64,000 nucleotides of DNA from Ilex aquifolium (taxonomy: Eukaryota; Streptophyta; Magnoliopsida; Aquifoliales; Aquifoliaceae). Positions within the stretch are counted from its first letter, which is position 1. Each line of letters begins with the position of its first letter. The notes under the pieces are model-generated. The model was not told the DNA's origin. It saw only the letters and a program-made list of their open reading frames with translations, and ran no database searches. The position numbers and the translations under genes are program-made. The DNA is taken from positions 21,301,089-21,365,088 of the forward strand of contig OX637405.1 in NCBI GenBank assembly GCA_951799425.1, read 5' to 3'. Below, piece after piece: positions 26,550-63,100 of the stretch.

Positions 26550-27912
26550 AAGTCTCCTAAGCAGCTGTAGTGGTTGCATCATCTCCACCATCCTGTGGCT
26601 ATTTCTTGGGCTCATCATCATCATCATCATCACTGAATCCAGTATTTTGCATCATTTGTCTAACATGCATGAGCTCCCTCCGTATGGCTCTCTGATCTCT
26701 CGAAAGATCCATCTATCTCCCTTCAAGAGAATCTAGCCGGAGTGTAATGAGACTATGCTGCATGCCTACACTAGATTGAACATGACCAATGTTGGTCTGA
26801 ACCTCACCTAATGCATTAATGATAGCAGTCCACTGGTTAAGTGAAGGTGCCCGAGGAGTCCTAGGTGGTGGTGCATGTGAGGTGCTAGCTTCTGTGCATC
26901 TCGATGGTGGTGTACGACTCAATGTATCTCAACCTCCATCTCATCGTCCTCTGCCTCTACCACCATGGGGCAAATGTGTAACACACATGAGTCTCACTTT
27001 GTATTAGTGAATCCTTTCCAAAAGGTGTCTTTGGTCTTAGTATCTTATCGGTCTCTAAAACAATCACATCCTTAACTACAGAAATTCGGGTGATAAGAGA
27101 TCCAAAAGGTAGACTGTCACTAATCCCACCCTCATTAAAGGCTCTTCGAATGACTCTAAATATTACCTATGGCAAATCAATCCTCCACACCAATTCCAAT
27201 AGAATGTAAGAGGTAAGCTCGTGGTGTAGGAAATGTAGACACGTGAGTCTTCGGGTCAATGCTATAATTGATTATCAAATTAGTCATTTGATACTCTCTA
27301 TCTAGGTCCTTGTGGTACGAGTTTTGTCAGTTCCATTCAACAAGATAAAGAGCACCATATAACACATATGCAACATCGTGGAGGCTGGGCATATAATTCT
27401 TGGGTCTATGATGATAAGGTCACGTGCTACCTGGGTATAGGTGTTGGGTGGTGGGAATCAAGTCAGTCGAGAACCCAAAAAACACACCTCGAACATATAT
27501 TTGAAAGTGCTCACTATCCTCAGTGGTGTTCTTAATGTGTGTGTAAAAATCACTGACTATATCTACATTTGCTAGTATAGAAGCCGCAAATATCTCAATC
27601 CAACCTCGTGACTTAAAAATTCAAAGGGATAATAGTGTTACTTACCCTAGTGAAATTCACTATGCGCTTTACCAACACAGGTCGTAATGCAAACTGTCTC
27701 CTCTACAACTTACAATAATGTGCAGTTTGGAATCGGCTTGTCTCATTTAGTGCGCGTACTCTTGCCCACATCTGCCATTTCTCAACACATTTATTTAGGC
27801 AAAGACTCCTTTTTTTCTCTTTTTGGATGGAAATGTTTCTCAGCTCTCGGAGGCATTTTCCTAAAAACAATCGGTGAAATAGTGCAAATACAAATGACAA
27901 TAATTGATCCAA
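26550..27912 (-). pseudogene. Degraded plant transposon accessory ORF (PF20167-like)
   Basis: Read from 27912 down, broken frames give AASILANVDIVSDFYTHIKN, then FQIYVRGVFFGFSTDLI, a MTNLIINYSIDP segment and SLPFGSLITRISVVKDVIV. The last open frame (26922-26713) is Pro/Ser-rich and ends in a short heptad-like stretch (NALGEVQTNIGHVQSS). The order and the markers YVRGV and SLPFG[ST]L[IV]T match the ORF at 37989-38864, which I identify with the 'putative plant transposon protein' domain family. Its place, between gag remnants and the polypurine tract of a Ty1 element, is that of a 3' accessory or envelope-like ORF. At least four stops interrupt it. Confidence 0.6.
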
Positions 27913-31688: not shown

Positions 31689-33470
31689 ACACACCCTTAC
31701 TCTTTTGTCATAATTCTTAGGATACTAAGAATTTGGGACTAAAATCTATCTCATTCCTAAGTTTTCCAACGAAAGTTTATTTTCTTAATTCTGACTTCGG
31801 TAGCAAAAGTTATGGTCGTTCGAAGTCGGAGAAAAAATTCTCTCATTTGGCCCCCAATACATGAAATGTATTGTGTTACTACTTTGTCGCATATGCACTC
31901 TCAGCTGCCCATGTTACTTAAAAATTCTTAGTGTATTACTGGTTTGACCCCCAATATGTAAAATATACCATGTTACTACTTTTATGGAGTGCAATTTTTA
32001 AGCAATGTTACTACTTTTATGGAGGCATGCAAATTCACCATGTCCATGTTACTACTTTCTTTGCCTCTTTCTTTTCCAATCCTAAGCTATAATTCTAAAT
32101 AGGTTTTCCACATTCTTCATGTTCAAGCACATATATATTCATACACATAGCGCGTAACAAAGAATATGCAATGCATGTGAATGCAATGTCCTAACCCAAA
32201 TCTTCCCATAACGAAAAATGATGAACTCAATTCCCATGAGACCCATGTGAGATCTAAAGAATATCAACTCATTACCATCATCATACAACATACATTCATT
32301 CTCAAAAGAATATATGTCCATAAAGTCCCAATTACATGCCTTTAATAAAATACAAGGCAAAAATATAATTATATATAAGGGACTACAAAAATCCATATCA
32401 AGAGCCACAACTCGGCACTGTCCTCAAAGCGGGCCCAAGTTTGGGCATTCAGCAGATGTCCGTTCAACACCTGAAATATATCCCCATAAAGGGTGAGCTA
32501 TGCTCAATAGGGTATCTTCTATGAAGATCACCTCCTAACCCATATGCATACGAAATGTCATGCAATCATAAATCTTTCCAAGCATTCAATTCACATATAT
32601 ATTCATGAACAATGCTATTAATATTTGCCATGGCATGAAGTGTAAACTCATGCATGCAATGTCAACACCGAGCCCCATCTCGGGCTCCTATAACACATCA
32701 AATGTCATGCGTACGAACCCGGGCATTCCAAGCCCCCATCTTTTTGGGGCGGCAATTTATGGTATTTCACCAACGAGACACCACACCGTTAATGGATCAT
32801 CATGACATCCCACCTGTGGCTCTGTTTTCTCCATTACGCTTTTATGGGTTCGCTACACCAAGGAAAAATGCGTAATCGGAATTGTCGGGTCTTCCACCTG
32901 AAGGAGAATCTAGTCCTACTTATTACATCCTTACACGTTTACTTACACAATTCTGGTGCAACTCAGCCAGACCTAAGTCCAACCTTCCCGAGCCCACCTA
33001 TCAACTCACCTAGGTGGTGATTGACTCAAACCCATGCACACACACTCATACTCATGTCAATGCCCATGAATGTAGTGCAATCCATGCATATACAAATGCA
33101 ATGCGCAAATGCAATTCATATCATCATGTTCATCATATCATAAAGCATATAATGGACATGTTCATTACCATAAACATTCTCAAGCATGTCATATATGGTT
33201 ACAATCCAATAAACATACTTGAACTTATCTAAGTTTTTAATCAAAACACTTAGAAGGCATGAAATATAAACATATAGGATACCCACAACAAAGCCACATA
33301 AGCTTCATCATAATGTAAATTATATCATGGATGCATATAAAAATAGTCTACCTTATCACCCAACACATGTTAAATACATTGATTAGTTCAATTAAATACT
33401 TGATTCATTTATGCATTTTATTAAACACCTAGGAGGCATGAAATATAAATACATAGCATATGGTGCTTCA
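31689..33470 (-). mobile_element. Chromovirus-type LTR fragment
   Basis: Read on the minus strand, the part at 32470-33470 follows the Tekay-type LTR (complement of CTATTGAGCATAGCTCACCC and ATGGGGATATATTTCAGGTG, and a stretch of monthly-type CATGACATTC words). It ends near 31690 with a GGGTGTGTCAT terminus like the GTGTCACA end of that family. It is a diverged subfamily: TGTTACTACTTT occurs four times (31888-32075) where other copies carry ACCGGT arrays. The upstream end is cut at about 33470 by a foreign LTR piece. No TSD. Confidence 0.55.
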
Positions 33471-33794
33471 TTTAAAGAATGGAATATTAATGCCAGGGTT
33501 GAATGCCTTGTAGAAACACTTGCTTGTTTGTAGACGGGTTTAGTCTCGGCACATACAATTCTTGTAAACTTCTAGAAAGACATCGGAACCATGCTCTTAA
33601 TTCTCACAATCCACATTTATCTTTCGATTAACTTGCTATTGACACATGGGCTAATTGAGTTATCAAGCACAAGTATAATAAATCGGATGATTAACTACAT
33701 GTCCAGATCCTCGAACTAAAGAGTGACTTTTTATTTTTGAGCTCATCTTATATTTTGTCTAGAAAACCTTCTTGGAAAGAATCCTATATTCCAA
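33471..33794 (+). repeat. Inverted repeat arm A (Athila-like LTR piece)
   Basis: This roughly 324-bp segment is the reverse complement, with moderate divergence, of 34246-34567 inside the Athila-like LTR. Shared words include TTCATTTAAAGAATGGAATA, ACTTGCTTGTTTGTAGACGG and GAAAGAATC. It is therefore a fragment of a second LTR of the same family in opposite orientation. Confidence 0.75.
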
Positions 33795-34080: not shown

Positions 34081-36007
34081 TGATCCGAAATGTGTACACC
34101 CAAGTGCAGGCGGTCAAGCTGTAGTAATAATCCGGTTTGAGTCCGGAGTCGAATCCACAGGGAACTTTTGTTAATATTTCTGAGGTGAGCAGTGGTAGAG
34201 ACCTATTGATTGTAACCTTTGAGATTTGCTGTGAGATATGAGTTTTTCTGGACAGAATATAAGATTCTTTCCAGGAAGATTTTCTTAACAAAATAGGTGC
34301 TAATAAAAAAAGGTCACTCTTTAGTGCAAGGATCTGGACATGTAGCTAGTTATCCGGTTTGTCATAATTGTGCTTGATAACTCAATTAACTCCCGTGTCA
34401 ACAGCAAGTTAATCGGAATATAAAGATGGATTGTGAGAATTAAGAACATGATTCCGACGTCTTTCTAGAAGTTTACAAGAATTGCCTGTGCCGAGACTTA
34501 ACCCGTCTACAAACAAGCAAGTGTTTCTACAAGACATCCAATCATGATATTAATATTCCATTCTTTAAATGAAGTACAATAAGGGGGAAGATTGAGGGGT
34601 AGTCATGAGGATCTAGCCGGGGTACTTGCCTTGAACTGATGAGTCTTTCTATGCAAGAGTCATCCGTGTCATAGAAAGAACCCACAATTATACAAAGTAC
34701 CCTAGCTTTGCTAGATGCAATCAATCGTCCAATAACAAGAGGAAATAAGCGTTAAGCATAGAAACATTGCACAAATATGATTCCCGGATAACTTAGACAT
34801 GCCCTTCTCCTCTTACTAAAGAGTGAATGAGAAACTACTCACTCTTCATGGCTTGGGTAAAGCTAGAAAAGTGAGTGATGCTCATCCCTCCAAGTAGAGA
34901 ACTTATAAGATAAAGTAACAACAAATGCGTAGCCAATCTTTAACAAAGAATGGGTGAATCACATTCCACCCTTCACGGCTTTGGTAAAGCTCTAGAAAAG
35001 TGGAAGAGTTTCACTCTTCTAAGAAAGAAAGAAGCGCAAGCAATGGAAGTGAAATGTATGAACAATAAAAGTAGAAGAAAGCTAGTCACATTTGGAGGGT
35101 GGCTTCCTCAACCAAGAATTGGAGGGTTGCTTCCTCAACCAAAAGGTGAGCTATCTCTCTTCTAAGCATGAAAAATGAAAGCATAAACATAAGTATAAAC
35201 ATAAAACTACTGTTATAACAAGCAAGAGATGTTGGACTAAATCCAAACTAATATCTAAAATAAAGACTTCATACAAGGGAAATGAGCTAAATCTACAATG
35301 AGAGTGGGAGTCTAAGCCTCCATCAACTTTCCTACTTCCTACTTGGCTCCTCTAGCTCTCCAACAAGGGGAGTATTTATAGGCAAGAGGAGGAGACAGGG
35401 GGGTGGTGAAAGAATAGTGTTTGCCGCCCAAGTCCAAGTGAACAGTCAACAACTCTGCTGCCAGTCTGTGGATAACGTTCGAACGTGAGTTGGCGTTCGA
35501 ACGTTCTTTCTGTTTTTGCACTAAGGGCGTTCGAACGTTGACTGCCGTTCGAACGTTTCTTCTGTTTTTGCACTGAGGGCGTTCGAACGCCAGATTTGCT
35601 CTGACCCCTTTCACTCGAGTGATCTGTTGGTCTTCTGTGAAGTTCAGTTCCAACTCTCTGCAGTGGTCTGGTCTTCCATCAACTCAAGTGTACGTTCGAA
35701 CGTGAGTTGGCGTTCGAACGTGACACTCAAGTACTTCAGAGCTCCAGTCTTCTTTCCTAACTGCAACACGCCTTCTCTTCAACAGTTGAGTCTACTACAG
35801 TGCAATGTGGACGTTCGAACGTTCTGGCTATGCTCCAAGCTTTTCCAATTTTGGCCCTAATGTGCTGGTGCTGCATCCAAGTGTGGTACTTGTTGTTCTT
35901 GGGTCCTTGTTCCGTTTAGGGCCTGAAATGACATCACTTAAACTCCATTAAAGTACAATTAGTCTTAAAATGTCATAATAATATGTCAAATTTAAGTACT
36001 AATCACA
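34081..36007 (-). mobile_element. 3' LTR of Athila-like Ty3 element
   Basis: On the minus strand it starts TGTGATTAGTAC right after a polypurine tract and ends ACATTTCGGATCA. Close to the end is the segment TTCCCTGTGGATTCGACTCC that typically precedes the primer-binding site in Athila-type LTRs. The promoter is near 35373-35380, with a palindrome array upstream. The segment 34246-34567 recurs inverted at 33471. The left end abuts Tekay RT sequence, so the element inserted there; no matching TSD can be read because the other end is lost. Length is 1,927 bp. Confidence 0.7.
35373..35821 (-). promoter_or_regulatory. LTR promoter: CGTTCGAACG array and TATA box
   Basis: TATAAATA on the minus strand (35373-35380) is preceded by eight exact copies of the palindrome CGTTCGAACG, starting at 35476, 35494, 35528, 35546, 35580, 35693, 35711 and 35812. 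Most are extended by A/T on each side toward AACGTTCGAACGTT. Pairs are spaced 18 bp apart at the start (35476/35494, 35528/35546, 35693/35711). The nearest copy is about 95 bp upstream of the TATA box. Confidence 0.75.
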
Positions 36008-36018
36008 CTCCCCAACCT
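36008..36018 (-). other. Polypurine tract, Athila-like element
   Basis: GGTTGGGGAG on the minus strand lies directly before the LTR start TGTGATTAG, the position required for plus-strand priming. Confidence 0.7.
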
Positions 36019-37772
36019 AAATATTGCTAGTCTCTAGTAATACGAAAAAGAAAATTCTACTCCTAATGCCATTTTCGTAGGTCATCCGGTTGCATTTAGC
36101 TTATGCAACAAGCCTTTGAACCACTAGGTTTACCCTAGCGGACGAGTGTTGTCTCGTGAGGGTTTCCAGAGAAGCTACCCACAAACTTCAGTCGAACAGA
36201 TGTGCATAGGAGAGTGCTGACTAAAGTAAATTAGTATCATGGTCGTTGGGACACCAGATTCTCAACTTTGACTTATGTCTCACACGTCCTTATTTCACAG
36301 GTATTCATTCTATGCAAAAATTATCATTTGTTACATTGGTATTTGAAATTCTCAATGCAGTAGGAATGATCATTCAAGAAACAGGAATTGTTATGTAACA
36401 AATACTCTCTTTTATCACCTTCCATGGATAGTTTCGATTTCACAAGCCTCGCGTAGTATACCCTCAACAAAAGTTCACTCTGATTATAGTGAATTGTTTC
36501 TCACAGATCATGTGATCAGAAGATGGCCAATCGAAAAATCATATGCACAATTTAGGAAAGGAGTGAAATTTTTAAGAAGCAACTACTTATGTTTGGCATA
36601 ACCTCATGAAAGAATATTAACGCAATTAAAAGGAATGCTATTTACCATATCCCAATTGTGATTATCAACACATGCATGTAACAGACTTGAGATCAAATAG
36701 GGCTTTGCATAGGTTGTAGCGTGGCCAGAGGTCAGTGGCTAACGAAACGACGTCAGGGATTTTCAAAAGCTATCTTTTGTTTACGTATTGTAGCACACCT
36801 TTTTCTAACTTCTTGATATTCTGCCGAGAGATGACATTTTTTTCTTTCATTTTTCTCATTTTTTCACTTTCTTGGCAAGTTCTTGCCTTTTTGCTTCTTG
36901 TTTTGTTTCAATTGTTCCAATCAACTCTTCTTGGATGATAATCTCGAATGCTTCTCTTTCTTTTTCTTTTTCTGTATCATCTTACAAAGAGGATGTAAGA
37001 AAATTAGATAGCCAAGGTATGTCAAGTATGTTTTCCTGTGGAATGGTAATCATATAGGTTTATCACAGAAAAATTTATAAATTGATGGCTCAAACATGGC
37101 TAACGAGGGATAAATTGTGTCAAAGAAAGGTCTAAGGCTCAATATTATATCAAAGATGGCCTAAGATCATTTCTCAAGCATGTGCACATGTACGTGTCGT
37201 ATGCGATGGTTCCTTGTGGGATATGTCAATAGATCACTTTTAAGTGCGTCAATCAAAGCAAGGTTAATGAGATCATTCAAAAATTGAGAGTGAACAGAAT
37301 TTACTTGAGTAAACATTGATTGTCTCTCAAAAGCATCGTTAGGTTCGAAACTCACCCTGGTGTTCTTTGTTATCTCCACTGTGTATGTCGGGTTTTCCAG
37401 GGGGTATTGGTTATATACCAATTCCATTTTCGAGTCAGATCCTCCTGTACCTTTAAAATAACAATTATCGATGTACATATGACAATTTAAGTATAGAGAG
37501 AATACCAATTTTTTTCAAGAAATGTGGTTATAAGTCTCGGTTGATAAATGGAGGTGTCAAACCGATCATGTGCATATTTACTCTAGCAAGCATTCTTACA
37601 TCCACATTTGTTCCATCACCTTTTAATTTTTATGCTAAATCTATAAATGCATTAAAACAAATAAAAGTGATAAATGGAACCATTCATTTCAAAATATCAT
37701 CTTTTAACATCAACGGTTCAATTCATTCAAAACAAACATAAAAACAAGAACAAAAACAGAAATCCCTCTCTC
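36019..37772 (-). other. 3' untranslated region of Athila-like element
   Basis: Mostly non-coding DNA between the accessory ORF and the 3' polypurine tract. A minus-strand open frame at 37167-37508 (113 codons) is the only one of note; it has no motif I recognise and no good reason to be called a gene. Pyrimidine-rich runs occur near 36830-36980. Confidence 0.4.
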
Positions 37773-38864
37773 TCACTCTTCTCCTTGTCCACTAGCTCCA
37801 CTATGTCCACCCCTCAAAAGCCTAAGGATCTCATCCTGCTTAGCTTCAATGCTAAGCATGATGTCCCGTAAGGAGCGTCGGGTGCTGGTGCTAGGTCCCG
37901 CCTCTGCTGGCTGATCTCCCTCTCTCTCCATCTCTCTCTCCATCTCATCTAGCTCCTCTTGTACCTCATCCACTCCGTGGGCCGGGGGCTATTCTTGCCT
38001 TGCCGCTGGGCCACCACTATGACTTTGGCTTCTCCGGAAGGAAGCCTTGTTTAGTGGCCCCATTGGCTTTTGGATTTCCATCTCGGGCCTCACCCTTACC
38101 CCATGCTCTTTGCATAGTTCTGTCACTAGGGTGCCGAAGGGAAGCGAATTCCTCTTCACATCACACCTTTTTTTCATTTCTTTCAGAATTAGGGAGGGGA
38201 GATAAATGCTTTGCCCTTTTCCAATCGCATACAACAACCGAGCCATGTCAGGTAAAACTTCATTTTTTCTTCCTATTGGCGCAAAATTTGACACCGCAAT
38301 TAAGTTTAACATTTTGTATTTGTCACTTAGCTCCCCTTGTCTAAGAAATTTCTTCCCAGTCCACGAAAAATTGGGTACTCCAGTCAATTCCTTCCCCACC
38401 TCATTTATCACCACATTCTTCCTTGGGGGATAAGCGGGATTTGGCACCCGAGGCACCTCTTGCCTTACTCCCCAAATGTAATCTTTATCAACGTCCACAT
38501 GGACTCCCCTTACATACGTTCGAATTTCCCCCTCGATGATCTCGGCGTTGGAGTAAAACTCCCGCACCAAGTCGACTACGGCCTCACCGCCGTTCCTCAA
38601 ATACAACAACCACCCCCTCCTTTCCATCTCCGCAAAGATCCCCAACTCCGCAAAATCAGTCAAAATTACATCTCTTTCACAAACAATGGCTTTGTTTTGG
38701 TAGAAATTTTCAAACCTGTCTGCTTTTAGAGCTGTGAGAAACCGAGTCTTGTCGTATCTCCTTGTGAGTGGTGGCATTCCTTCTCTCACCTCCACCACTT
38801 CTTCGACAAAATTTGGCTCTTGGGTGTTTAGGTTCTTCCTGGCAGGAAGCTTGACTCTTGGCAT
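37773..38864 (-). CDS. Accessory ORF, plant transposon protein (PF20167-like)
   Basis: A real ATG at 38864 opens 291 codons (stop TAG at 37986-37988). The same frame continues for about 66 more codons to 37773, so an ancestral protein of roughly 360 residues has one premature stop. Residues about 35-250 carry TRFLTALKADRFENFYQNKA, MERRGWLLYL, VREFYSNA, YVRGVHVDVDKDYIWGV and SLPFGTLVTELCKEHGV, which I match to the domain listed as 'putative plant transposon protein'. The function is unknown. The tail is Glu-rich with a short coiled coil (SIEAKQDEILRLLRG). It lies 3' of pol on the same strand, is preceded by its own TATA box and palindrome array at 39074-39393, and would end in the 3' LTR. A diverged relative is at 26550-27912. 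Confidence 0.7.
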
Positions 38865-39073
38865 TTTTTCGGTTTTTGAGTTGGAGGGTTTTGAAATCTT
38901 TGATTTCTTTGTGAAAATGGATCTTCTTGAAGTGGCAAATGTCTTGGGAGGGTTGATTTTTGGTGAAGATGGAGAATGGTTGGGGTTTTGGGATCTGGGT
39001 AGTGAAGAGTCTCCAAGGTTTTTCGGGTTTTCAGAAGTTTTGGAGGGTTTTGAAATGAAAAAGACGAGCCGGG

Positions 39074-39393
39074 CTTTTATAGCCTGAGTCGTAACGTTCG
39101 AACGTTTGTGACGTTCGAACGTGGATAGAAGGATTTTAAACAGACCGTTCGAATGTGGTATGACGTTCGAACGTGGTGAGCTCCCAGTACTTTTGTGTTC
39201 TGTCAGAGGCCAAAGTACTGAATGTTCTCTTCGTTCGAACGTTCTATTGGCGTTCGAACGTTAATCTTGTTCGAACGGTCTATTGGCGTTCGAACGGACT
39301 GAGCTCCCAGTACTTTTAAGTTCCAGCAGAAGTTTCATCAGAGGCTGAGTACTGTAAGCAGTCAACGTTCGAACGTTACCTGGCGTTCGAACG
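39074..39393 (-). promoter_or_regulatory. Internal promoter: CGTTCGAACG array and TATA box
   Basis: On the minus strand TATAAAAG (39074-39081) lies 210 bp before the ATG of the accessory ORF. Immediately upstream are eight exact copies of CGTTCGAACG, starting at 39095, 39112, 39164, 39232, 39251, 39287, 39366 and 39384, plus two one-base variants (near 39146 and 39269). The word is the same as in the 3' LTR promoter, and the spacing of close pairs is similar (17-19 bp). A spacer beginning GAGCTCCCAGTACTTTT is repeated (39179 and 39301). Promoter function is inferred from layout; no start site can be read. Confidence 0.6.
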
Positions 39394-39659
39394 TTGAACC
39401 AAAATTAAAATTTTTCTCTACTACACTATATACAATCAAAGAAAACAAAAAACACAAATTTAAATCAAAAACTAAGGCGTCTCGGGATGAACCCCTACCC
39501 ACGCTTCAGGTTGGTATTTTGGGGCATTCCTTACTCGGCCCATATTTTCATTTCAGTCAAAAGAATTTATACAAAAAGATTTTTACACTTTTTACAACAA
39601 ATTCGGACCTTTGGCATTCACTCCCCCAACAAAAGTACACATTTCCTACAGAAAATTAT

Positions 39660-40070
39660 CTAATCCGAGTCTCCCTCTGTGTCTGTGTAAAATGGACAAC
39701 CAGTAACTCTCTCAACTTCCTCTCTCACAAATCGGTTAAGCACAGTACCGGAATAGCATGGCGTATCAGGGTAATCCTTACTCAGCCCATTCACTATCCA
39801 GTCTAATCGATCAAGTGCGCGACCGGAAATTGGTTCAGAACACTGGTTGTACCTTTTTTCGTGAAAGAATCTGCCACACTGTTTACAGGCACCAAGCCTT
39901 TTTGCACGACGGCGTTTGGCAAAGCTGTTTCTGCCACAGAGGGGTTTCTCTTGTTTTTCTTTGATTTCAGCCTTCCTTACTAATCTTGCTTTTCTCATGA
40001 TCATAATATGTACATCAGATGGAAACGTACGTAGAATTCCTAGGCTAAACCAAAAAAGATTTACATCCAT
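39660..40070 (-). CDS. Small basic zinc-motif ORF, unknown
   Basis: A 136-codon frame with a true ATG at 40070 (an in-frame ATG also precedes RKARLVRKAE). The middle is strongly basic: RKARLVRKAEIKEK, then AKRRRAKR, followed by ACKQCGRFFHEKRYNQC, a C-x2-C ... H ... C cluster that could bind zinc. The C-terminal third is acidic and ends EGDSD. I do not recognise the family. It lies on the sense strand of the Athila-like element, between the second purine tract (40258) and the internal promoter (39393). An Arg-rich stretch next to a Cys/His cluster is compatible with nucleic-acid binding. The open frame is uninterrupted, which is notable in such a region, but expression is unproven. Confidence 0.45.
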   Translation of the reverse strand: MDVNLFWFSLGILRTFPSDVHIMIMRKARLVRKAEIKEKQEKPLCGRNSFAKRRRAKRLGACKQCGRFFHEKRYNQCSEPISGRALDRLDWIVNGLSKDYPDTPCYSGTVLNRFVREEVERVTGCPFYTDTEGDSD

Positions 40071-40257
40071 GATTGCTAAATTTTAAGACTCACTATCTGG
40101 TTCTTTAACGTCTGTCAGTCACAAAGACGATTGAAGCTGATTCATAAGCATAATCATCAATTTATACAATCAATGTTCAAACATGATTAACAGCGACAAT
40201 AAAAATTTAAAAATTTACAAAAATTATGAACGAAAAAGAACTGATGAACTGATCATA

Positions 40258-40270
40258 CCCCCCAACCTAA
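40258..40270 (-). other. Second purine tract downstream of pol
   Basis: TTAGGTTGGGGGG on the minus strand is almost identical to the tract at 36008-36018 (TTTAGGTTGGGGAG) and is likewise preceded by a TTGAACATTG-type word. It is followed by TATGATCAGTTC. It may be a central or internal plus-strand primer, or mark the 3' end of an ancestral element before the extra ORFs were gained. Confidence 0.5.
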
Positions 40271-40563
40271 ATTGAACATTGTCCCCAATGTTTCGAATTT
40301 ACCGGTTCATGGAGTGTGGAGACGAGGTTGAATGGTAGAGATCTGTTCACCGCTGAGACCTACAAACAAAAACACAAAAATTACTCATCTGTGCGCAGAT
40401 CTGGGTTTCGAGTAGGCTGAAAATCCTTATGTGTGAGTGCGAACAAGAGAAGAACACCCGTGAGCAAATATAAGATTAAAATGCAAAACATGAAGCAAAA
40501 AATCGTGTTTGTGGAGTGTGTGGTCATGGGTGATTTCTCGGGTAACAGAGACTCGAAGACTAA

Positions 40564-40635
40564 CAGAAGGAAGAAGAAGAAAAGAAAAAGAAGAAGAAGA
40601 AGAAGAAGAAGAAAAAAAAGTGGGGGGGGGGGGGG
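40564..40635. repeat. Purine microsatellite and 14-G run
   Basis: GAA/AAG-rich repeats end in eight A and then 14 consecutive G. On the coding strand of the Athila-like element it is a pyrimidine run just past the integrase C-terminus. A long Arg/Lys reading frame on the plus strand is an artefact of this repeat. Confidence 0.7.
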
Positions 40636-40667
40636 CAACTGCGGCGGCTGGGGAAAAAGTGGGTGCC

Positions 40668-40997
40668 TTATAAAGGCGCCCCAGTGGGTCGGGTTGGAGT
40701 AGATATTTCCTGACCCGATCCACTGGAGTGTCGGCAGGCGCGAATTTCGGAGGAGTACTCTGGTTCCATTAAAAGAATGGTTTCCACATTTCTAACAAAA
40801 TACTCCAAAAATGGTTTTAACCTCTGACCATTAACAGTAAAATTATTACCGTTCGCTGGGTTTTCCACTTCAACTGCTCCATGTTCAAACACCTTTTTGA
40901 CAATGTAAGGTCCAGTCCATCTTGATTTCAACTTACCAGGAAAGAGGCGGAGTCTTGAATTAAATAGCAAGACTTTTTTAGACGGCTCAAAAGATTT
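40668..40997 (-). pseudogene. Integrase C-terminal extension after stop
   Basis: The frame of the large gag-pol ORF continues past one TGA (40995-40997) with KKVLLFNSRLRLFPGKLKSR, the conserved integrase C-terminal segment, then WTGPYIVKKVFEHGAVEVEN and a tail ending near 40668. Family members usually have a positively charged residue at the stop position, so CGA to TGA at a methylated CpG is a likely cause. Apart from this stop the domain looks intact. Confidence 0.75.
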
Positions 40998-43900
40998 TCA
41001 CACAATGTGTTTGTCATGAAAAATTTTCATCCTGGTTTTAGCAATCTTAGCATTTTCATATGCCTCATTTCTCAATTCCTCCAATTCATTTATCTGAAGT
41101 TTCCTTGTTAGCCCAGCCTTGTCCAAGTCAACATTCGTTGCTTTAATAGCCCAGTATGCCCTATGTTCCAATTCCACAGGCAAGTGACATGGCTTTCCAT
41201 AGACTAATCGATAAGGAGACATGCCTAAAATTGTTTTAAAAGCAGTGCGGTATGCCCAGAGCACATCAGTTAGTCTTAATGACCAATCTTTGCGATCTGG
41301 ATTCACCATTTTTTCCAAAATTAATTTGATCTCCCGATTAGCTAACTCAGCTTGTCCACTGGTCTGTGGGTGATAAGGGGTTGCAATTTTGTGAAAAATC
41401 AAGTATTTTTTTATTAAATTCCAGAAGGGACGATTACAAAAATGAGCACCCCCATCGCTTATGATTGATTTCGGAATTCCAAACCGGGACAAAATATTTT
41501 CTTTCAAAAATTTGATCACTGTTTTGTGATCATTGTTTCGGCATGGAATTGCTTCAACCCATTTGGATACATAATCTACAGCCACTAAAATGTATAGATA
41601 GCCAAAGGAAGGGGGAAATGGTCCCATAAAATCGATGCCCCAACAGTCAAAAATTTCAATTACCAGAATGGGGTTTAAGGGCATCATATTTCTTTTAGAA
41701 ATGTTCCCCAACCTTTGACACCTATCACAAGTTAAACAAAAGGCATGGACATCTTTGAAAAGTGTGGGCCAGTAAAATCCACACTGCAATATTTTTGCAG
41801 CTGTTTTTCTTGATGAAAAGTGGCCACCGCATGCTTCAGAATGACAAAATGTTATTACCTGGCTACTTTCATGAGCAGGGATGCAACGTCTTATGATTTG
41901 ATCTTTACAGTACTTGAATACGTAAGGATCCTCCCAAAATAAGTTACGAACCTCCCTCAGAAATTTATTTTTGTCCAACATGGTAAAAGATGGAGGGAGT
42001 GTACCAGTAGCAAGAAAGTTAGCAATGTTTGCATACCATGGTGTCCTATCAATCATGAACAATTGTTCATCGGGGAATTTCTCATTGATTGGCAGTCCAT
42101 CCTCATGGAATTCATAGGTCAGTCTGGACAGATGATCTGCCACCACATTCTCGACATCTTTCTTGTCCTTGATGACAAGATCAAACTCTTGGAGCAAAAG
42201 TATCCATCTCAAGAGTCTTGGTTTGGCATCCTTCTTTGTGAGCAAAAATTTTAGGGCTGCATGGTCAGTGAATACAGTAACAGAAGAACCAACAATATAA
42301 GAACGAAATTTTTCCAATGCAAAAACTACAGCAAGCAATTCTTTCTCAGTTGTCGAATAATTCATTTGGGCATCATTCAAAGTTTTGCTTGCATAGTAAA
42401 TCACATGGGGTTTCTTATCTTTTCTTTGTCCCAATACAGCACCTACAACAAAATCACTTGCATCACACATTAGTTCAAAGGGAAGATTCCAATCAGGGGG
42501 TTGCATTATTGGTGCAGAAATTAACATGTCTTTTAGCTTGTCAAAGGCTTTTTGGCATGCTTCATTCCAATCAAATATTACATCCTGACTTAGGAGGTGA
42601 CACATTGGTTTTGCTATGGTACTGAAATCTTTTATGAATCTCCTGTAGAACCCTGCATGTCCTAGGAATGATCGAACATCCTTTACAGTCTTAGGGGCAA
42701 GCAAATTTCCAATCAAATCAATTTTTGCCTTGTCAACTTTCATACCTTCAGACGACACAATGTGACCAAGAACAATGCCCTGTGTTACCATAAAATGGCA
42801 TTTTTCCCAATTGAGCACTAGGTTGGTCTCCTTACATCTGATCAGTACTTTCTCTAGATTGGTTAAACACAAATCGAAGGAATCACCATAGACAGAGAAG
42901 TCATCCATAAATACTTCCAAAAAATTTTCAACCATATCACTGAACAGGCTTAGCATACATCTTTGGAATGTTGCAGGAGCGTTACAAAGTCCAAATGGCA
43001 TCCTTTTGAATGCAAAGGTGCCAAAGGGGCATGTGAAGATTGTTTTCTCCTGATCATCTAAGGCTATCTCAATTTGGTTATACCCTGAATACCCATCTAA
43101 GAAACAGTAAAATGCATGGCCTACAATTCTCTCCAGAACTTGGTCAATAAATGGGAGGGGAAAATGATCTTTTCTAGTGACCAAATTGAGTTTTCGATAA
43201 TCAATGCACATTCGCCATCCTGTGACGACTCGAGTTGGTACTAGTTCATTTGCATCATTTTTTACCACTGTGACCCCAGATTTTTTTGGCACAACTTGGG
43301 TTGGATTGACCCATTTACTATCTGAGATAGGGAAGATTATCCCTGCATCTAAGAGTTTGAGTACCTCGATTCTCACAACTTCCTTCATGTGAGGGTTCAG
43401 TCGTCGCTGCATTTGACGAGAGGGTTTTGAATCCTCTTCAAGGTATATGGCATGATTGCAGATTAACGGGCCTATACCTTTCAAGTCAGCGATGGTCCAT
43501 CCAATGGTACTTTTATGACTTCGAAGAACTTCAAGCAATTTAGACTCTTGCAAGTCTGTGAGTTTAGATGAAATTACCACTGGGTATGACTCATTCTCTC
43601 CTAAAAATGCATATTTGAGGTCAGATGGGAGAGGTTTCAATTCAGGCCTTGGTGGGGTAACACTTGATGAGACTGGCTTTGTGCCACTTGGTGAAATTTC
43701 TTCGAATTTGGGTGCCCATGTCTCAACAGTATGAGTAGGGCCACTTGGTGGATTTGGGTCATCATCTGTTATTTCTGATGAGATGAGTTCTAACAGAGAT
43801 GATTCATTAGGATCCTCACAGAATGTATCATCCAGATGTTCCTGTATCAAAGATTCTATGGAATTTACTTCCCTTTCTTCCTTTTCTTCTTCTGGATGTT

Positions 43901-46046
43901 TGGCAATATTGAAAATGTTCAGTTCGAGAGTCATATTTCCAAAATTTAATTTCATGACTCCATTCCTACAATTGATTAAAGCATTGGAAGTTGCTAGGAA
44001 TGGCCGACCAAGAATGACAGAAATTTGGTTCTCCGAATTTATTGCTGGTTGAGTATCCAGAACAATGAAATCAACAGGGAAGACAAAACTATCTACTTGG
44101 ACAAGCACATCTTCAACAATTCCTCTGGGGGTTTTGACAGATCTGTCAGCCAACTGGAGTGTGATACAAGTGGGTTTAAGTTCACCCAGACCCAACTGCT
44201 GATAGACAGAGTAGGGTAGCAGATTAACGCTGGCTCCAAGGTCTAACAAGGCTTGTTCAATCCTGAATTTCTCAATGATACATGACACAGTCGGACATCC
44301 TGGGTCTTTGTATTTTGGAAGGGTTTTATGTTGGAGAAGAGCACTAGCTTGTTCCGTTAAGAAAGCTCTCTTTTGGACATTCTGGCTTCTCTTGATTGTG
44401 CACAAGTCTTTTAGAAACTTGGCATAAGACGGAACTGGTTTGATTGCATCCAGAAGTGGGATGTTGATATTTACTTGCTTAAAAAGCTCGTAAATTTCAG
44501 GCTGATTTTTCTCCTTCTGTTTGGTTTTGAGTCGATGAGGAAACGGAGCTGGAATGGGATACGAAGGTTCCCTTTTTTCAGAAGGTTCTGGCTCTTGTTC
44601 AATCACAGGCTCAGGGTCTTTCTCAAGTTCAATCTCAATTGGTTCAGGTTCAGATGATGGATTGGCTAGGCTTGACTCAGGCCTTGGCTTGGGAATGAGT
44701 ATGTCTCTGATTGTTTTGTCAATCACTTTGCCACTTCTTAATGTCGTGACAGCTTGGGCTTGGTCTTGGGTGTTTCCTGTTGTTGAGGGGTTTCCTACAT
44801 GGAATTGGCCTTGTAGTTGCTTTGGTTGAGCAGGAAACTTTCCATTTTCGTGTGTGACCATGGATTGAGTCAACTTTTGGATGTGGCTTTTAAGATCCTC
44901 AAAAGATTGAGTGGTCTGGGTTTTGAAATCAGTGAAAGCCTGTGTGGAATTATTGTTATAATTCATTTGGCTTTGCATGAACTGATTCAGTGTGTCCTCA
45001 AGGTTCCTCTTTTGTGGTGGTTGGTATGGTTGATATGCATGAGGTCCTTGAGGTGGTGGGTATGGTCCTTGTTGTTGGTTCATGGGTATTGGTTGTGTGT
45101 TCTTCCAACTGAAAAAAAACCACCCTGGATTGTATGTTTCAGAATATGGGTTGGAGTAGGGCTTGTTGAAGTTGGAAACTGCATGTGTTTGTTCCAACAA
45201 GACTTCTTTGAATGCTGGGATGGTGGGACACTCACCAGTAGGGTGTCCTGTTAGTGCACAAATTCCACACATTTGCTCGGTGGAAGGGCTAACATCAACT
45301 TGATGGACTTTCTTCATCTCTAAAGCTTCAAGCTTTCGAGATAGTGTGGACATTTTTGCTCTCAAGTCATCATCCTTTCTCAAGACATATTTTCCTCCTT
45401 GGGAATTAGATGGTTTGGCTTCTACAGTGGTAGGGGAGGCTGAGTCCCACATCTGAGAACTGTCAGATATGGTGTCGAAAAAATTGAATGCCTCCTCCGG
45501 ACTTTTTCCCATGAATTCTCCTTGGGCCATCATTTCGACAAACTGACGTAGTCTAGAGGGTAAGGAGTCATAGAAAAATCCTACCAAAGTCCAATTTTCA
45601 AAAGCATGATGTGGGCAAGATTGGAGCAGATCTTTGAATCTCTCCCAACTTTGATAAAAAGTTTCTCCTTCTTTGACCGCAAAATTCATGATTTGCCTTT
45701 TTAGTGCATTTGTGCGGTGTAAAGGGAAAAAATTTCTAAAAAATTCATTTTGCAATGCTTGCCAATTGGGTATTGAAAAAGCCTTTAAAGAATTTAACCA
45801 TTGTTTGGCTCTATCCCTCAAAGAGAAAGAAAACAATTTCATTTTGGCCAATTCAGAATTGTCTTGAAATGTTCCACACACTTCTTCGAAATCTTTTATA
45901 TGCAGATATGGATTTTCTGCATCCAATCCATGAAACACGGGCAATAACTGCACTGTCCCCGGCTTTACAGTAAAGAGGGGAGCATTTTCAGGAAAAATAA
46001 AACAAGAGGGGACACTATTTCTAGTGGGATTCAAGTAATCCCGCAA
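40998..46046 (-). CDS. Athila/Tat-like Ty3 Gag-Pol polyprotein
   Basis: A single frame of 1,682 codons. Approximate residue positions: Gag capsid 1-210 ([28 protein letters not shown]); zinc knuckle at about 258-272 ([14 protein letters not shown]); a Pro/Gln-rich linker; protease at about 600 ([10 protein letters not shown]); RT at about 880-1080 with CIDYRKLN and the catalytic box [10 protein letters not shown]; RNase H at about 1190-1310 ([17 protein letters not shown]); integrase zinc region at about 1400 (HSEACGGHF ... CDRCQR) and core with D-D-E ([24 protein letters not shown]; 35 residues between the last two). Gag and Pol are fused without a frameshift, usual for this lineage. The listed first codon is TTG; the frame runs on to about 46064 (EEEVPNIRT), so the true start was lost at the junction with the Tekay-type element. 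All catalytic motifs appear intact. Confidence 0.9.
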
Positions 46047-46075: not shown

Positions 46076-48010
46076 GTCCTCATTATTCCGAGTAGTGGGG
46101 AAGGATACGATGTGTACACCGATGCTTCGCTACGAGGCTTGGGATGTGTGTTGATGCAAGGAGGGAAGGTGGTCGCTTATGGCTCGAGGCAACTCAAGGT
46201 TCATGAACAGAATTATCCCACCCATGACTTAGAGCTCGCCGCTGTGGTTTTTGCTCTTAAGTTGTGGAGATGTTATTTATACGGGGAGAAATTTCAAGTG
46301 TTCTCAGACCATAAAAGCCTCAAGTACATATTCACACAGAGAGACTTGAACCTTCGGCAAAGGAGGTGGGTTGAGTATTTAGAAGACTATGATTTCACAC
46401 TCAACTACCATCCGGGAAAGGCGAATGTAGTTGCCGACGCTCTTAGCAGGAAGTCTTGGGGTGAACTCAACGTTTCCATAGGTGAATGGAAGTTGAAAGA
46501 TGCCCTTGGAGATTTTGATCTATGGGTTGGAGAAGATGGATCCCGACCATGTTTGTTCAACCTTGTGGCTCAACCTACTCTCCAACGTAGGGTTGTGGAA
46601 TTGCAAGGCTTGGATCCTGAATTAACATCGATGCGAGCTAAATTGGAGAATGGAGAAACTATGGAGGGTTGGTCTTTGAGAAATGGAGAATTGAGATATG
46701 GGGAGAAGCTATGCGTTCCCGACGATTCGTCTCTAAAAGAGGAGATACTTGGAGAGTGTCATCGCTCTAAGTTTGCTATCCACCCCGGTAGCACAAAAAT
46801 GTATAGGGACATGAAGCGCCAATATTGGTGGAAGGGAATGAAGAAGGATGTGGCAAGGTTCATAGCACGATGTGCGGTGTGCCAGCAGGTGAAGATTGAA
46901 CATCAAAAGCCAGGAGGATTACTACAGTCTTTACCTATCCCAGAGTGGAAGTGGGATCACATCACCATGGACTTCGTATCTGGCTTTCCACGGACTTCAC
47001 GAGGGCATAATGCCGTATGGGTCATTGTTGATAGACTCACCAAGTCCGCTCACTTCTTGAGTATGAAGACCACTGACACGTTAGAGACCCTAAGCAAGCT
47101 CTATATTCGCGAGATAGTGAGGTTGCATGGAGTTCCGCTATCCATTGTGTCGGATCGTGATTCTCGTTTCGTAGCGCAATTTTGGCAAAGTCTTCAAAGA
47201 GCTATGGGGACAGAGTTGCACTTCAGCACCGCCTTTCATCCCCAAACGGATGGCCAATCCGAGAGGGTGAACCAGATTCTAGAAGACATGTTGCGTGCTT
47301 GTGTGTTGGATTTCAAGGGAGGTTGGAGCGACCATTTGCCGTTGGTGGAATTTGCATACAACAACAGCTATCAAGCAAGCATCGGAATGGCGCCTTATGA
47401 AGCATTGTATGGAAGACCGTGTAGATCTCCTACTTGTTGGTTGGAAGCCGGAGAAAGTAGCTTGTTCGGGCCGGACATTGTTCGAGAGACTACGGAGAAG
47501 ATCCAACTAATCCGAGAGAGGCTACGGACGGCGCAAAGTAGACAGAAGAGCTATGCGGACCACCGACGAAGACCCTTAGAATTTAAGGTGGGAGACTATG
47601 TATTTCTCAAAGTGTCACCCAAGAAGGGCGTGTTTCGATTCGGCAAGAAAGGGAAGTTAGCGCCAAGATATACCGGACCACTTGAAGTGATCAAGGTTAT
47701 GGGCAAAGCGGCGTATCAGTTGCGGTTACCAGCTCAGTTGTATGGGGTACATGACGTGTTCCACGTGTCGATGTTGAGGAAGTGTCAATCGGATGCAACT
47801 CCAGTCGTGGATTTGGAGGATATTGAAATTCAGGATGGAGCAACATATGAAGAACAACCGGTGGAGATTCTTGATGCCAAGGAAAAGGTACTCCGCAACA
47901 AAGTCATCCGACTAGTGAAGGTTTTGTGGCAACACCATGGAGTGGAAGAAGCTACTTGGGAACCGGAGCAAGAAATGCGGGAGAAGTATCCACGTTTATT
48001 CGCTACTTGA
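46066..48010 (+). CDS. Tekay/Del-like RNase H, integrase and chromodomain
   Basis: An uninterrupted frame (first in-frame GTG at 46112, open from the junction) encodes the C-terminal half of a chromovirus Pol. Order by residue: RNase H 1-120 ([41 protein letters not shown]); integrase zinc domain at about 225-275 (ending CAVCQQVK); catalytic core with D-D-E ([22 protein letters not shown]; 35 residues between the last two); integrase C-terminal barrel ([20 protein letters not shown]); and a chromodomain from about 575 ([28 protein letters not shown]). Chromodomains steer integration into heterochromatin. It lacks gag, protease and RT, so it is a truncated but young-looking copy. The stop is followed 28 bp later by a polypurine tract and the 3' LTR. 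Confidence 0.88.
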
Positions 48011-48051: not shown

Positions 48052-50265
48052 TGTAACACCCCGAATTTTCTTTTATATATTTATAGAGATATATATATAG
48101 TAAATAATATTTGTAAAAGATGTAGATATATGTAGTGACATAAGAATAAACCGTAGGAATAAATGCTATGGATACAATTTGATTGGGAAGTTACGGGTCG
48201 AAGATGTTTAAACTTGGAAAGGGTGATTGGACAAGTTTCTAAAAGTTTGTAGGTCAAAATAATGATTCCATTGAATCCGGAAGGTTGAAAAACATTGGGA
48301 GTGGTAATATGGATGTATTGGAAGTTAGGAAGTGTCTCGGAGTTAAAATACACTTTAGCGAGAATTTGGGTAAAAATGGGTATTGAACACTACTTAGTGT
48401 TTTGGCCATAACTTTTTATCCTTAATTCCAATTGATCTGAAATTTTAACAGTAGATAGTAGACATCTAGGGCTACAAAAGTATGTCTCATGAAAATTTTC
48501 CAATTCGACCTCTAAATGGGTCAAAACTGCATTGGAAGTTGAAACAAAAATCTGGAAGTCAAATCCTACCGGTACGCGTACCGGTACGCTGAACTCCAGA
48601 AGCTGAATCGTATCGGTACGCGTACCGGTACGCATACCGGTACGCCCGACAAAATCCAGCCCGATCCGACTGCGGGTCTTCCTCCATTTCTTCCACTATA
48701 AATACATTTTGTCACCTCCTTAGCCTTCATTACACCACTCCAAACCCTAGAAAACATAAGAGAGAAAGAGAGAAAGAGAGAAACACAAGAACAAGAGAAA
48801 ACAAGAGATTGAAGGGTTGATTCAAGATCAAAGCCCTAATTTTTTCAAGAACACCAAGGTAGGGGATTTCTTCCTATTCTCTTACATTGAGGCTAGGGTT
48901 AAATTATATGTATTCTTTTGGTTCAAAATCATATATACTTGCTATTATTTACTTGATTCTTGATCCTCTTGCATTTATTACCATGTTTTAAACATTGTAG
49001 TAGTTGGGTAACCATTAAAGGTCCCTTTTTCATTCTCAAACCCTAGTTTTAAGAAAAATGAATCTTTCCTCTTTACATTTTCCTTGTTCTCACCATCACA
49101 ACCTTAGTGTTTGATATTGTATAACAAAATAATGTTTATGGTGATCTCTTGCTCTTTTTCTTCCATTTTGCTATGGTACAAATTGTGAAATTTGGGGATT
49201 TGTGGAGTTATGGGTTAATTGAGGAAATGGTGGATATCGTATGTCTTGTTTGGTTGTTTGGAGGAACAAGGGTGAGAGGTTCCCTGTAAGGATGCTTGAG
49301 AAATAAGGCTTTGAGGGTGAATTGGGGACTTGTGTAATTGTTGTTTATGTGTGATATTTGTTGGATTTTATCTCTTGGGTGGTTGTACGATACGAACATG
49401 GATTACTATGGACCGGGGATCATGTAGTGGGTATACGTCTTTATATGCCACGCGGGTATGAACTTTTCCTACCACATGGAGTGGGTAGACGCCTTTGTAC
49501 GCCGTGTGGGTATAAACTTTTCATATCGCTAATGATCACGGTTTAGTAACGTGGGTTGTATCGGGCACACCGTGTGGGTCATCGTGCATTGTACCAAATA
49601 CGATTTCTGCAAGAATTTTGGGGTAATATGGGATGCCACAAGAACTTGTGGAAATGGTGTCTGGTGGGATGGATTATGTTTTGGGAATTGATTCTTATTG
49701 GTATCTTGTGTTCATTTATTCTTTTAATTACCGTGGTTCCTTAAACTTGAGATCTATTTAAAATGTCCTGCTTTTCCTTCAAAAATGTTATATATGCTAT
49801 TTGTGAAAATGAGACCAACTGTTTTATATGCTTTCCTAAACCTTGTTTGAGTTTGGGAAGATTTTGCTACAGAGCTTCGTGCTCATCCCCTACAATTAAC
49901 ATTTTTCAGATTATGCTATAGAGGAGGAGCTTGGCGCTAATGAGCAGGGTCTCGGGGAAGCCTCATTTGAGGGGTACCTGGATCCCGAGTGGGACATTTA
50001 GAGATGCCCTTTTTCTTTTGTACTAGACTAGGAACCAATATGTACAAACATTGTAAAGTCTAGTTTTCTTTTGTAATTTCGCTGCGCTACATTATTAAAT
50101 TTTTGAGATGTAAATGCCATGGTTGGGCATATTCTTTTGGATAATGATGTAAATATTTTATGGATGATGAATGAAGTTTAATTTATTTATGGATGATATT
50201 AGTGCTCTCATGATGTGAATGTTTTAGAATGTAATGCCGTCTAGGGTGGTATTTGGGGCGTTACA
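48052..50265 (+). mobile_element. 3' LTR of Tekay-type element, 2,214 bp
   Basis: It begins TGTAACACCCCG after the polypurine tract and ends GGGGCGTTACA, with inverted terminal words. The promoter cluster at 48566-48704 lies about 0.5 kb in. The sequence is unrelated to the 2.46-kb Tekay LTRs apart from the ends, so it represents a second chromovirus family. The 5-bp site after it is CAAAC; the partner duplication is lost with the 5' half. Confidence 0.85.
48566..48704 (+). promoter_or_regulatory. LTR promoter: TACCGGTACGC repeats and TATA box
   Basis: Five copies of TA[CT]CGGTACGC, arranged as two tight blocks (48567-48589 and 48611-48645), precede a TATAAATA box at 48697-48704 by about 50 bp. 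The words nest two palindromes, CGTACCGGTACG and TACGCGTA, and are dense in CpG. Confidence 0.7.
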
Positions 50266-51142: not shown

Positions 51143-52321
51143 GTTGGTGTAAATTCATAAATACCCACCCCAAGAAAGACCCGGAATTTATAATGGTCAT
51201 TGGATGTGCAACATCAATGGCGGGGGCTTGGAATGTCTGGATTCATACGCAGATATTGCATGTGATATGGGAGCATGTGAAGGCTCAGGTTGTATTGCAT
51301 GTGTGAGTCTCATCTCATAACATGGCATGACATAGAGAATTCCATTATGAATTGCATATTCTTAAATAGATTGTTGGTTGATCATTGAATTACATGTGAG
51401 CATTTCATATGCATCTAGGTTGGGGAGTAGACTCTTTAGGAGAAATACTCTATTGAGCATGACTCACCCTTTATGGGGACAACATTTCAGGTGGGAGACA
51501 AACGCCAGTGGATGGCTCTCACTTGGGCCCTCATTGATGAAGAAAGCCAGGTTGTGGCTTTATATCACATTTTTGTAAAACAAGTGTGTAATTATTTTTG
51601 GATATGTAATATTGTGCAAATGATTGTAAAACGAACTTATATGGACCTTATTTTGTGTAAAATTTAATGTTATATGAGTTTGGATGGTTGTTGTATGAGA
51701 TTGGAAGTGTTAGAATTGAAAAATGATTGAATCTTGGGCAAATTGGGCACTTCTACCAGTAGAATATTGATTATCTACCGGTAGAAGAATTCCAGTAGAC
51801 ACTTCTACTGGTAGAACATCGAGTATCTACCGGTAGAAGAATTTCAGTAGGCATTTCTACTGGTAGAACGTCGAGTATCTACCGGTAGAAGAAATTCAGT
51901 GGACACTTTTACCGGTAGAACGACGAGTATCTACTGGTAGAAGAACTCTAGTGGGTACTTCTACCGGTAGAACGTCGATTATCTACCGGTAGATCCCCAT
52001 AAATTTTCAAAAAATTAAAATTATTTTGTTAAGCCTCCGGGCCTTGAGTCATTTTGCTCAAATGAGGTAAATGGAGTAATATCAAGGGTAAATTGATATT
52101 TATTGGATCTTGGAATGGTTAATTCATTGAATTGTACAATAGTTATGCGTTTGGGAGTGCCCGGTACAAGGGAGACTCTACCCGAACTCTGTGTTGGTTA
52201 TTATTCCGGTGAAGGGGATGTTGTGACGTGGTGTCGGGTTATGCAGCATTCACGGGTATTTTCACGTGTTGATGGGTGATCAACGGATTGGCAAATGACC
52301 CCCGGTCTTAGAGGAGTCACA
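51143..52321 (+). mobile_element. 3' part of a Tekay-type LTR
   Basis: This corresponds to roughly the last 1.2 kb of the 2.46-kb LTR (compare 60375-61451) and ends GAGGAGTCACA. It is directly joined to an LTR copy lacking its first part at 52322. Its palindrome array is larger than in the neighbouring copies. Confidence 0.75.
51748..51992. repeat. CTACCGGTAG array, five-unit version
   Basis: About five tandem units of roughly 50 bp, each with two copies of CTACYGGTAG separated by GAACRTCGAGTAT-like and GAAGAATTCCAGTAG-like spacers, ten palindromes in all. The LTRs at 52322 and 58972 have only three units. Confidence 0.8.
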
Positions 52322-62879: not shown

Positions 62880-63100
62880 GATATAATAATATGTTTCAAA
62901 TTTGCGGATGAATAAAAGGAAGTTTGTAGGTACCTTCTCTGGAAACCTTCACAAGATAAAACTCGTCCACTAGAGGTAACCTAGGGGTATAACGGCTTGT
63001 TGCATATGCTAAATGCAAATTGTGATCCTTACGAAAGTGGCTTTGGGTTTTTATTTGTATTTTTAGTTTGTTAGGGACTAACTAAGCTTAAGTTGGGGGG
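62880..63100 (+). other. 3' internal end and polypurine tract of LTR element
   Basis: Non-coding sequence ending in AAGCTTAAGTTGGGGGG (to 63100), a polypurine tract placed directly before an LTR start. The rest of the element's interior is not present, so the 214-bp element and surrounding DNA replace it. Confidence 0.6.

Follow-up and report, generated by a model that had tools for sequence, protein, structure and literature searches.

In the 64-kb stretch of Ilex aquifolium DNA analysed here (the window), a minus-strand long terminal repeat (LTR) retrotransposon of the Athila type carries an array of short palindromes and a TATA-like box (39074-39393) ahead of its accessory open reading frame (ORF), which we call T32 (37989-38864, 291 aa). 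The same arrangement of palindromes and TATA box is found in the element's own 3′ LTR, which raises the question of whether the accessory gene is driven by a promoter of its own or merely sits behind the remains of an older LTR. Judged from sequence, we put at roughly 0.8 the probability that the stretch is an internal RNA polymerase II promoter for T32, that it stems from a captured LTR U3 (unique 3′) region, and that it is kept by selection and served by one factor shared with the LTR.

The original prediction had described eight exact palindromes ahead of a TATA-like box before the accessory ORF, and eight exact copies of the same word upstream of the TATA box of the 3′ LTR. Both counts are borne out. 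All 16 exact copies of CGTTCGAACG in the window fall into the internal array (39095-39393, eight copies), followed by a TATAAAAG box at 39074-39081, and into the U3 array of the LTR (35476-35821, eight copies), followed by a TATAAATA box at 35373-35380, all on the minus strand (expectation from dinucleotide shuffles, 0.00). No CG-containing 10-bp palindrome reached more than two copies in any of 30 simulated windows. Two additional internal words, at 39146 and 39268, carry one mismatch each. Words of the internal array are mostly paired at 17-20 bp, and 9 of the 16 intervals, including those of the one-mismatch words, have this length (simulated mean 1.85, maximum 8, n=5000). The ratio of observed to expected CpG is 1.73 in the internal array versus 0.30 in pol, and drops to 0.50 when the words are removed; for the LTR array the values are 1.23 with and 0.14 without the words.

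The presumed promoter box TATAAAAG begins 217 nt from the ATG of the accessory ORF (38864). With a start site placed about 30 nt past the box, the predicted 5′ leader (38865-39045) would contain no ATG. The 474 nt before the ORF start (from 39339) form the longest ATG-free run of the whole element, and the G content between TATA box and ATG (7.8%) is below that of every 217-nt window tested (steps of 10).

Other genomic copies, on which the original prediction was to be checked, retain this organization. A search of the 800-Mb genome with T32 gave 6441 first-look candidates, 134 of which were scored, and 50 loci including the window were examined, namely the 30 top hits with 1.5-kb flanks and 7-kb stretches at 20 of the last 26 scored hits. 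The internal array is kept in all 49 other copies, TATAAAAG in 47 of them (at −198 to −239) and the ATG-free leader in 45; only 4 new upstream ATGs were observed, versus 14-25 expected if the leader were neutral. At the LTR, the array is present in 18 of the 20 long loci and the TATAAATA box in 16 of 18 other aligned LTR stretches. Two words paired with an 8-bp spacer occur at 7903 sites in the genome (reversed-pattern control, 0). The same paired pattern also matched two viral contigs (L001 and L002).

Within the internal array, conservation is confined to the words. Compared to the window copy and with CpG transitions excluded, 0.59% of word sites differ versus 8.6% of spacer sites (Mann-Whitney p 7e-18, no correction for relatedness), suggesting selection on putative binding sites. 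Each of the ten word positions differs at a rate of 0.2-1.5%, and the base following the word at 18%. Among upstream 10-mers outside the words, none reaches the conservation of the median word and 3.8% match that of the weakest. The contrast is smaller if CpG transitions are included (95.2% identity in words versus 90.7% in spacers); these transitions make up 115 of the 140 word differences, as expected for copies that decay by methylation after insertion. In the LTR arrays of 18 copies, words and spacers differ at 1.15% and 8.85% of sites, respectively, and the 3′ edge of the word is sharp. The T32 protein itself shows a within-family ratio of nonsynonymous to synonymous divergence (dN/dS) of 0.13, which is biased low since the copies were taken by T32 similarity; between families, dS exceeds 1.

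Related families with diverged T32 proteins have different words, which again match between LTR and internal site. At locus L058, whose T32 is 43% identical to that of the window, the TATA box lies at −219 and decayed words are found at −261 and −241. The presumed intact word of this type, CCGTCCGGACGG, has 1403 sites in the genome (control, 10). Two elements of the CCGTCCGGACGG family, each read in short pieces, carry a pair of words 20 bp apart (one exact, the other with one or two mismatches) before the TATA box in the LTR as well as internally, the box being TATAAATA in the LTR and TATAAAC at the internal site. Their internal boxes precede the ATG of T32 by 217 and 218 bp, despite an identity of only 35-37% to the T32 of the window. 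Across families whose T32 proteins share 35-43% identity, the internal TATA box thus stays within −217 to −219. Both the CCGTCCGGACGG family and L058 have one ATG 15-16 nt past the TATA box, ahead of the inferred start site. The joint alteration of LTR and internal words in a related family suggests that one regulator serves both.

A comparison of genomic places gave the same picture. It covered 145 listed word sites (95 of 172 CCGTTCGGACGG places and 50 of 1403 CCGTCCGGACGG sites) and, of the 150 scored T32 hits, the 70 on contigs C1-C9. All 18 word/T32 pairs within 9 kb of each other fall into three classes, with the word 260-264 bp upstream (8 pairs), 3178-3216 bp downstream (6 pairs) or 8055-8458 bp upstream (4 pairs) of T32, and none lies elsewhere. 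By their spacing, these classes would represent the internal promoter, the 3′ LTR and the 5′ LTR, respectively.

Further T32 subfamilies carry further words. In one of them (L064), CGTCCGGACG words follow a tract resembling a polypurine tract (PPT), and the 12-mer GCGTCCGGACGC has 3271 sites in the genome (control, 3). The first 50 of these on C1 form 17 groups, three of which are chains of three clusters with gaps of 6.8 and 3.3-3.5 kb, the rest comprising one or two clusters. Thus, as far as places alone can tell, this third word shows the same LTR/internal/LTR-like layout, its link to T32 being the spacing seen in L064. A fourth subfamily (L065) has TGATCGATCA words, and the corresponding pair pattern occurs at 1486 sites (control, 1), e.g., at C1:943495-946346 of genome G000; TGATCGATCA is therefore a further amplified word. 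Many of the PF20167 hits in G000 with 377-aa frames agree in both frame length and score (111.5 bits), which suggests that this T32 family was amplified recently. In the single copy available of L057, a relative without a T32 match, the internal array is absent and the LTR has a single word.

The alternative raised in the original prediction was that the region is the U3 of an older LTR captured inside the element. The 215 bp that precede the internal words of the CCGTCCGGACGG family indeed align with the U3 of the LTR on the same strand (scores of 64 and 65 for the two elements versus null maxima of 44.5 and 41; 0/500 each), whereas the opposite-strand control for the second element scored 18.5. 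The 38-bp module that contains the words is nearly identical at the LTR and the internal site but inverted. Because of this U3 alignment and the inverted module, the most plausible reading of the internal promoter is that of a captured U3 in which the word module would later have been exchanged or inverted. For the window family, all that is left of the presumed U3 are the words, the TATA box and PPT-like tracts. The latter include an extra PPT at 40258-40272, whose junction with a presumed LTR start at 40257 matches the PPT/LTR junction at 36009 in 22 of 25 bp (3/200 shuffles as good), and a weak tract at 39615-39635, which from sequence reading would be the head of the presumed internal U3 (alignment not significant). 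When the alignment was limited to the two arrays of the window copy, neither strand scored above shuffles, the words being common to both and the spacers not. One 62-bp alignment reached 37.0 (maximum of 200 shuffles, 36.0), but it pairs the LTR array with the interior of a neighboring ORF for a protein resembling viral nucleic-acid-binding proteins (NABP) rather than array with array. The capture hypothesis is thus backed by alignment in the related family and not in the window family itself. The promoter hypothesis gained from the conservation of the words, the fixed distance between TATA box and ATG and the joint change of LTR and internal words, all of which are properties of the sequence. 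Both apparently hold and are not mutually exclusive, in that a captured U3 would have been kept as a promoter.

Several observations weigh against this interpretation. The copies were picked as good protein matches to the T32 of the window and share common ancestry, so that the p-values overstate their independence. Only 10 of the 70 T32 hits have any listed word within 9 kb, with word lists that are partial and exact, and subfamily L063 has no palindromes in the 551 bp fetched, a stretch that falls short of its TATA region. The footprint is imperfect at its edge: the base preceding the internal word differs at an intermediate rate (3.7%), and the 5′ side of the LTR word is soft, with ∼1-5% at most of the six preceding bases. 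Homology to U3 is undetectable in the window family (score 19.5; 337/500 shuffles equally good), and the inversion of the 38-bp module in the CCGTCCGGACGG family indicates that part of the word sharing may come from sequence exchange.

We propose that the ancestral unit captured was an LTR U3 complete with PPT, U3, palindromic words and TATA box. A sequence-specific factor, probably binding cooperatively to paired 10-bp palindromes, would act on LTR and internal promoter alike, and transcription would start ∼30 nt after TATAAAAG to give a short, ATG-free and G-poor leader. The palindromic nature of the words suggests a dimer, and their preference for pairs suggests two adjacent dimers. Since one factor would have to read both promoters, a family that switches its word would change it in the LTR and the internal copy together. 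The observations underlying this model are the restriction of internal conservation to the 10-bp words, the conservation of TATA box and leader, the concordance of words (directly in two families and by places in a third) and the U3 homology in one family. From these we infer protein binding, activation rather than repression, the position of the start site and the identity of the factor.

Could the region be a passive relic, i.e., the U3 of an older LTR that became trapped between pol and the accessory ORF and serves no function today? The resemblance of the junction at 40257 to the true PPT/LTR start and the U3 homology in the CCGTCCGGACGG family would both fit. However, a relic would not be expected to show such a difference in divergence between words and spacers, a TATA box in nearly all copies along with few upstream ATGs, a constant TATA position across families with strongly diverged proteins, or a joint change of internal and LTR words, and we regard this explanation as improbable. 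A role of the palindromes in nucleic-acid structure, as hairpins feeding small RNAs or as recombination sites, rather than as protein binding sites appears more improbable still. LTR palindromes of maize Sireviruses have been linked to small RNAs, and two palindromic words 18 bp apart are able to form a hairpin, but the two unpaired LTR words are conserved equally to the six paired ones, changes in the stems were compensated once and one-sided 125 times, and conservation in the internal array ends with the word. Least probable in our view is that the likeness of LTR and internal words reflects sequence exchange alone, without selection. The inverted but nearly identical module of the CCGTCCGGACGG family is what exchange would produce, whereas the two arrays of the window family have identical words but spacers that align no better than shuffled sequence, and internal-array words outlast spacers between copies. 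The pure relic, hairpin and exchange-only explanations were therefore set aside on the basis of the word footprint, the fixed TATA distance, the one-sided stem changes and the unaligned spacers.

A different route to expression would be a spliced transcript from the 5′ LTR, as predicted for the env-like ORFs of BAGY2 and Athila, with the array serving as an extra enhancer. According to the passages covered of these and the other papers cited below, splice acceptors are predicted for such elements (PMC2829016), and a review describes splicing of Bagy2 (PMC7264820). A spliced message would need neither a TATA box fixed at −217 nor an ATG-free leader that starts near it. We consider this route unlikely as the explanation of the array, and it may coexist with an internal promoter.

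A more speculative extension of the internal-promoter model, which we regard as doubtful, is that one of the accessory proteins, T32 or the NABP-like protein, acts as the family-specific DNA-binding factor for the word. It would then activate the gene that encodes it and only those LTRs that belong to the same family, in a self-addressed circuit, comparable to the trans-activators of some retroviruses and the anti-silencing proteins of some DNA transposons. In favor of this idea, the LTR and the internal promoter change their word jointly as the identity of T32 falls to ∼35%, and the sole T32-less relative examined keeps just one LTR word. On the other hand, palindrome arrays also occur in other LTRs of the window, where no T32 was seen, and Sireviruses without ENV retain their LTR motifs in the passages covered (PMC2829016).

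The closest known case is that of the repeated motifs of Sireviruses, which belong to Ty1/copia. In these elements, palindromic repeated motifs lie upstream of the LTR TATA box, extra copies occur almost solely upstream of ENV (77/79), and four elements without ENV have no motif copies in the linker; an internal promoter could not be conclusively identified by the authors (PMC2829016). The window element likewise has palindromic motifs before the LTR TATA box and again 5′ of its 3′ accessory ORF, but it has the Ty3/gypsy order and a T32 ORF. Furthermore, the CGG-CCG core, which only one of the 13 Sirevirus motifs is reported to lack (PMC2829016), is absent from CGTTCGAACG, whereas CCGTCCGGACGG carries CCG and CGG halves. 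Relative to the Sirevirus system as described in those passages, the window element adds a conserved TATA box near −217, an ATG-free leader, a word-level footprint and, in one family, homology to U3. By analogy, the window system would work like the Sirevirus motif system without being a member of it, and the similar architecture in Ty1/copia elements suggests convergence.

Other elements share single features with the one in the window. Gene23 of the maize element Grande, likewise an accessory gene, also lies between pol and the 3′ LTR and has its own promoter (PMC7264820); it is antisense to gag-pol, whereas T32 is in sense orientation and its presumed promoter resembles the element's own LTR. 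Sunflower Athila 14 has a sense 3′ ORF partly similar to PF20167, but an internal palindromic array is unmentioned in the passages covered (PMC11728184). Athila4 and Calypso, both ENV-containing Ty3/gypsy elements, have one extra PPT in the linker (cited in PMC2829016), while in the window element the extra PPT is followed by a PF05515 ORF and the U3-like promoter. The TRP28 proteins of Retand are thought to be capable of DNA binding (PMC11963269). Among the open-licence papers listed on Athila palindromes, accessory genes with their own promoter and Athila internal promoters, judged by title and abstract opening, we did not find this architecture in Athila; papers containing the CGTTCGAACG string included none on plant retrotransposons by title among the matches listed.

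The element is an Athila-type Ty3/gypsy element by its gag-pol order, its T32 3′ ORF and its extra PPT. The gag-pol ORF (40998-46046, minus strand like all features of the element) encodes gag, protease, reverse transcriptase (RT), RNase H and integrase in series, with the Athila domain order from protease to integrase; the 1682-aa ORF as it stands has no Chromo match at E 0.1. The accessory ORF matches PF20167 Transposase_32 (E 1.1e-25), as in the sense 3′ ORFs of the Transposase_32/Athila ORF-1 type, and has no match to PF03078 at E 0.1. The extra PPT is located between pol and the 3′ LTR. The PPT of the 3′ LTR lies at 36008-36022, and the LTR starts at 36007 and extends to lower coordinates (boundary judged by eye). 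The 5′ portion of the element is missing from the window copy: gag-pol is truncated at its 5′ end, where it is abutted at ∼46050 by a plus-strand Ty3/gypsy pol ORF (46112-48010) whose chromodomain match is weak and below the cut-off, and a whole-window scan found no matching 5′ LTR and no CGTTCGAACG beyond the two arrays. Between pol and the extra PPT, an ORF of 48 aa (40381-40527) with a hydrophobic stretch, judged by eye, has no database matches above cut-off. Ahead of it lies the third longest ATG-free run of the element (40528-40770), which contains a TATAAGG-like box near 40670 and may be a second internal promoter. Searches gave no Rfam matches at gathering thresholds and no NCBIfam matches above cut-off, and the best hits of a PDB sequence search were ribosomal proteins (E 0.013).

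Elsewhere in the window, the plus-strand pol ORF is followed by an LTR-like stretch (48567-48646, plus strand) with a CGTACCGGTACG palindrome array upstream of TATAAATA at ∼48697. Arrays of CTACCGGTAG at 51748-51993, 54151-54289 and 60985-61099, with a period of 51-52 bp, apparently belong to a different long LTR family; by eye, the array of the 54-kb copy lies well after a TATA-like box rather than upstream of it. At 63080-63600 (plus strand), the PPT region of an LTR start shares 78% identity with that at 36.0 kb, and decayed CTACCGGTAG-like words, judged by eye, lie upstream of its TATAAATA. A degraded T32 relative from another element (26987-27617, minus strand; pieces of 26-36% identity) has no readable promoter. 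A 280-nt inverted repeat (33459-33738 and 34302-34581) is 88% complementary, its arms being 563 nt apart.

The NABP-like ORF next to the array (39660-40070, 136 aa) is intact and lies between pol and the array. It matches PF05515 Viral_NABP (E 2.4e-9; 37.9 bits versus a curated cut-off of 23) and PF01623 Carla_C4 (E 4.6e-5, above cut-off). Two diverged relatives also exceed the cut-offs for both families, with E-values of 1.2e-13 and 1.8e-12 (52 and 48.2 bits) for PF05515. A genome search gave 3095 first-look candidates, and all 150 that were scored are above cut-off, while 14 control genomes yielded none. Among the three proteins, dN/dS is ∼0.20-0.26 with dS > 1, and an out-of-frame control for one pair lacks such an excess; within the window family, dN/dS is 0.43, and 29 of 50 copies are stop-free in the aligned frame. 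A single-sequence structure model was too poor for a structure search (predicted local distance difference test score, pLDDT, 49.9). The ORF and its two relatives thus resemble the cysteine-rich, nucleic-acid-binding proteins of carlaviruses by passing the Pfam cut-offs, but they are carried by LTR retrotransposons wherever the context was read (the window, aligned copies, L058 and L057, the relative without a T32 match). The cysteine-rich protein of potato virus M is a silencing suppressor (PMC10219291). By title, no link between a PF05515-type protein and retrotransposons was found among the literature matches listed, and no relatives turned up when viral contigs were scanned with T32, the NABP-like ORF, an RT piece and the NABP of L057. 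The RNA virus-type gene beside the array offers a separate starting point for work on gene exchange between RNA viruses of plants and retrotransposons.

For plant LTR retrotransposons, the expression and function of accessory ORFs at the 3′ end have been called unresolved, as far as the passages covered go (PMC7264820). A U3-derived promoter with a word-level footprint would make the expression of such an ORF testable. The words, which amount to thousands of sites in the genome, point to the likely binding site, and families with differing words would provide built-in swap controls.
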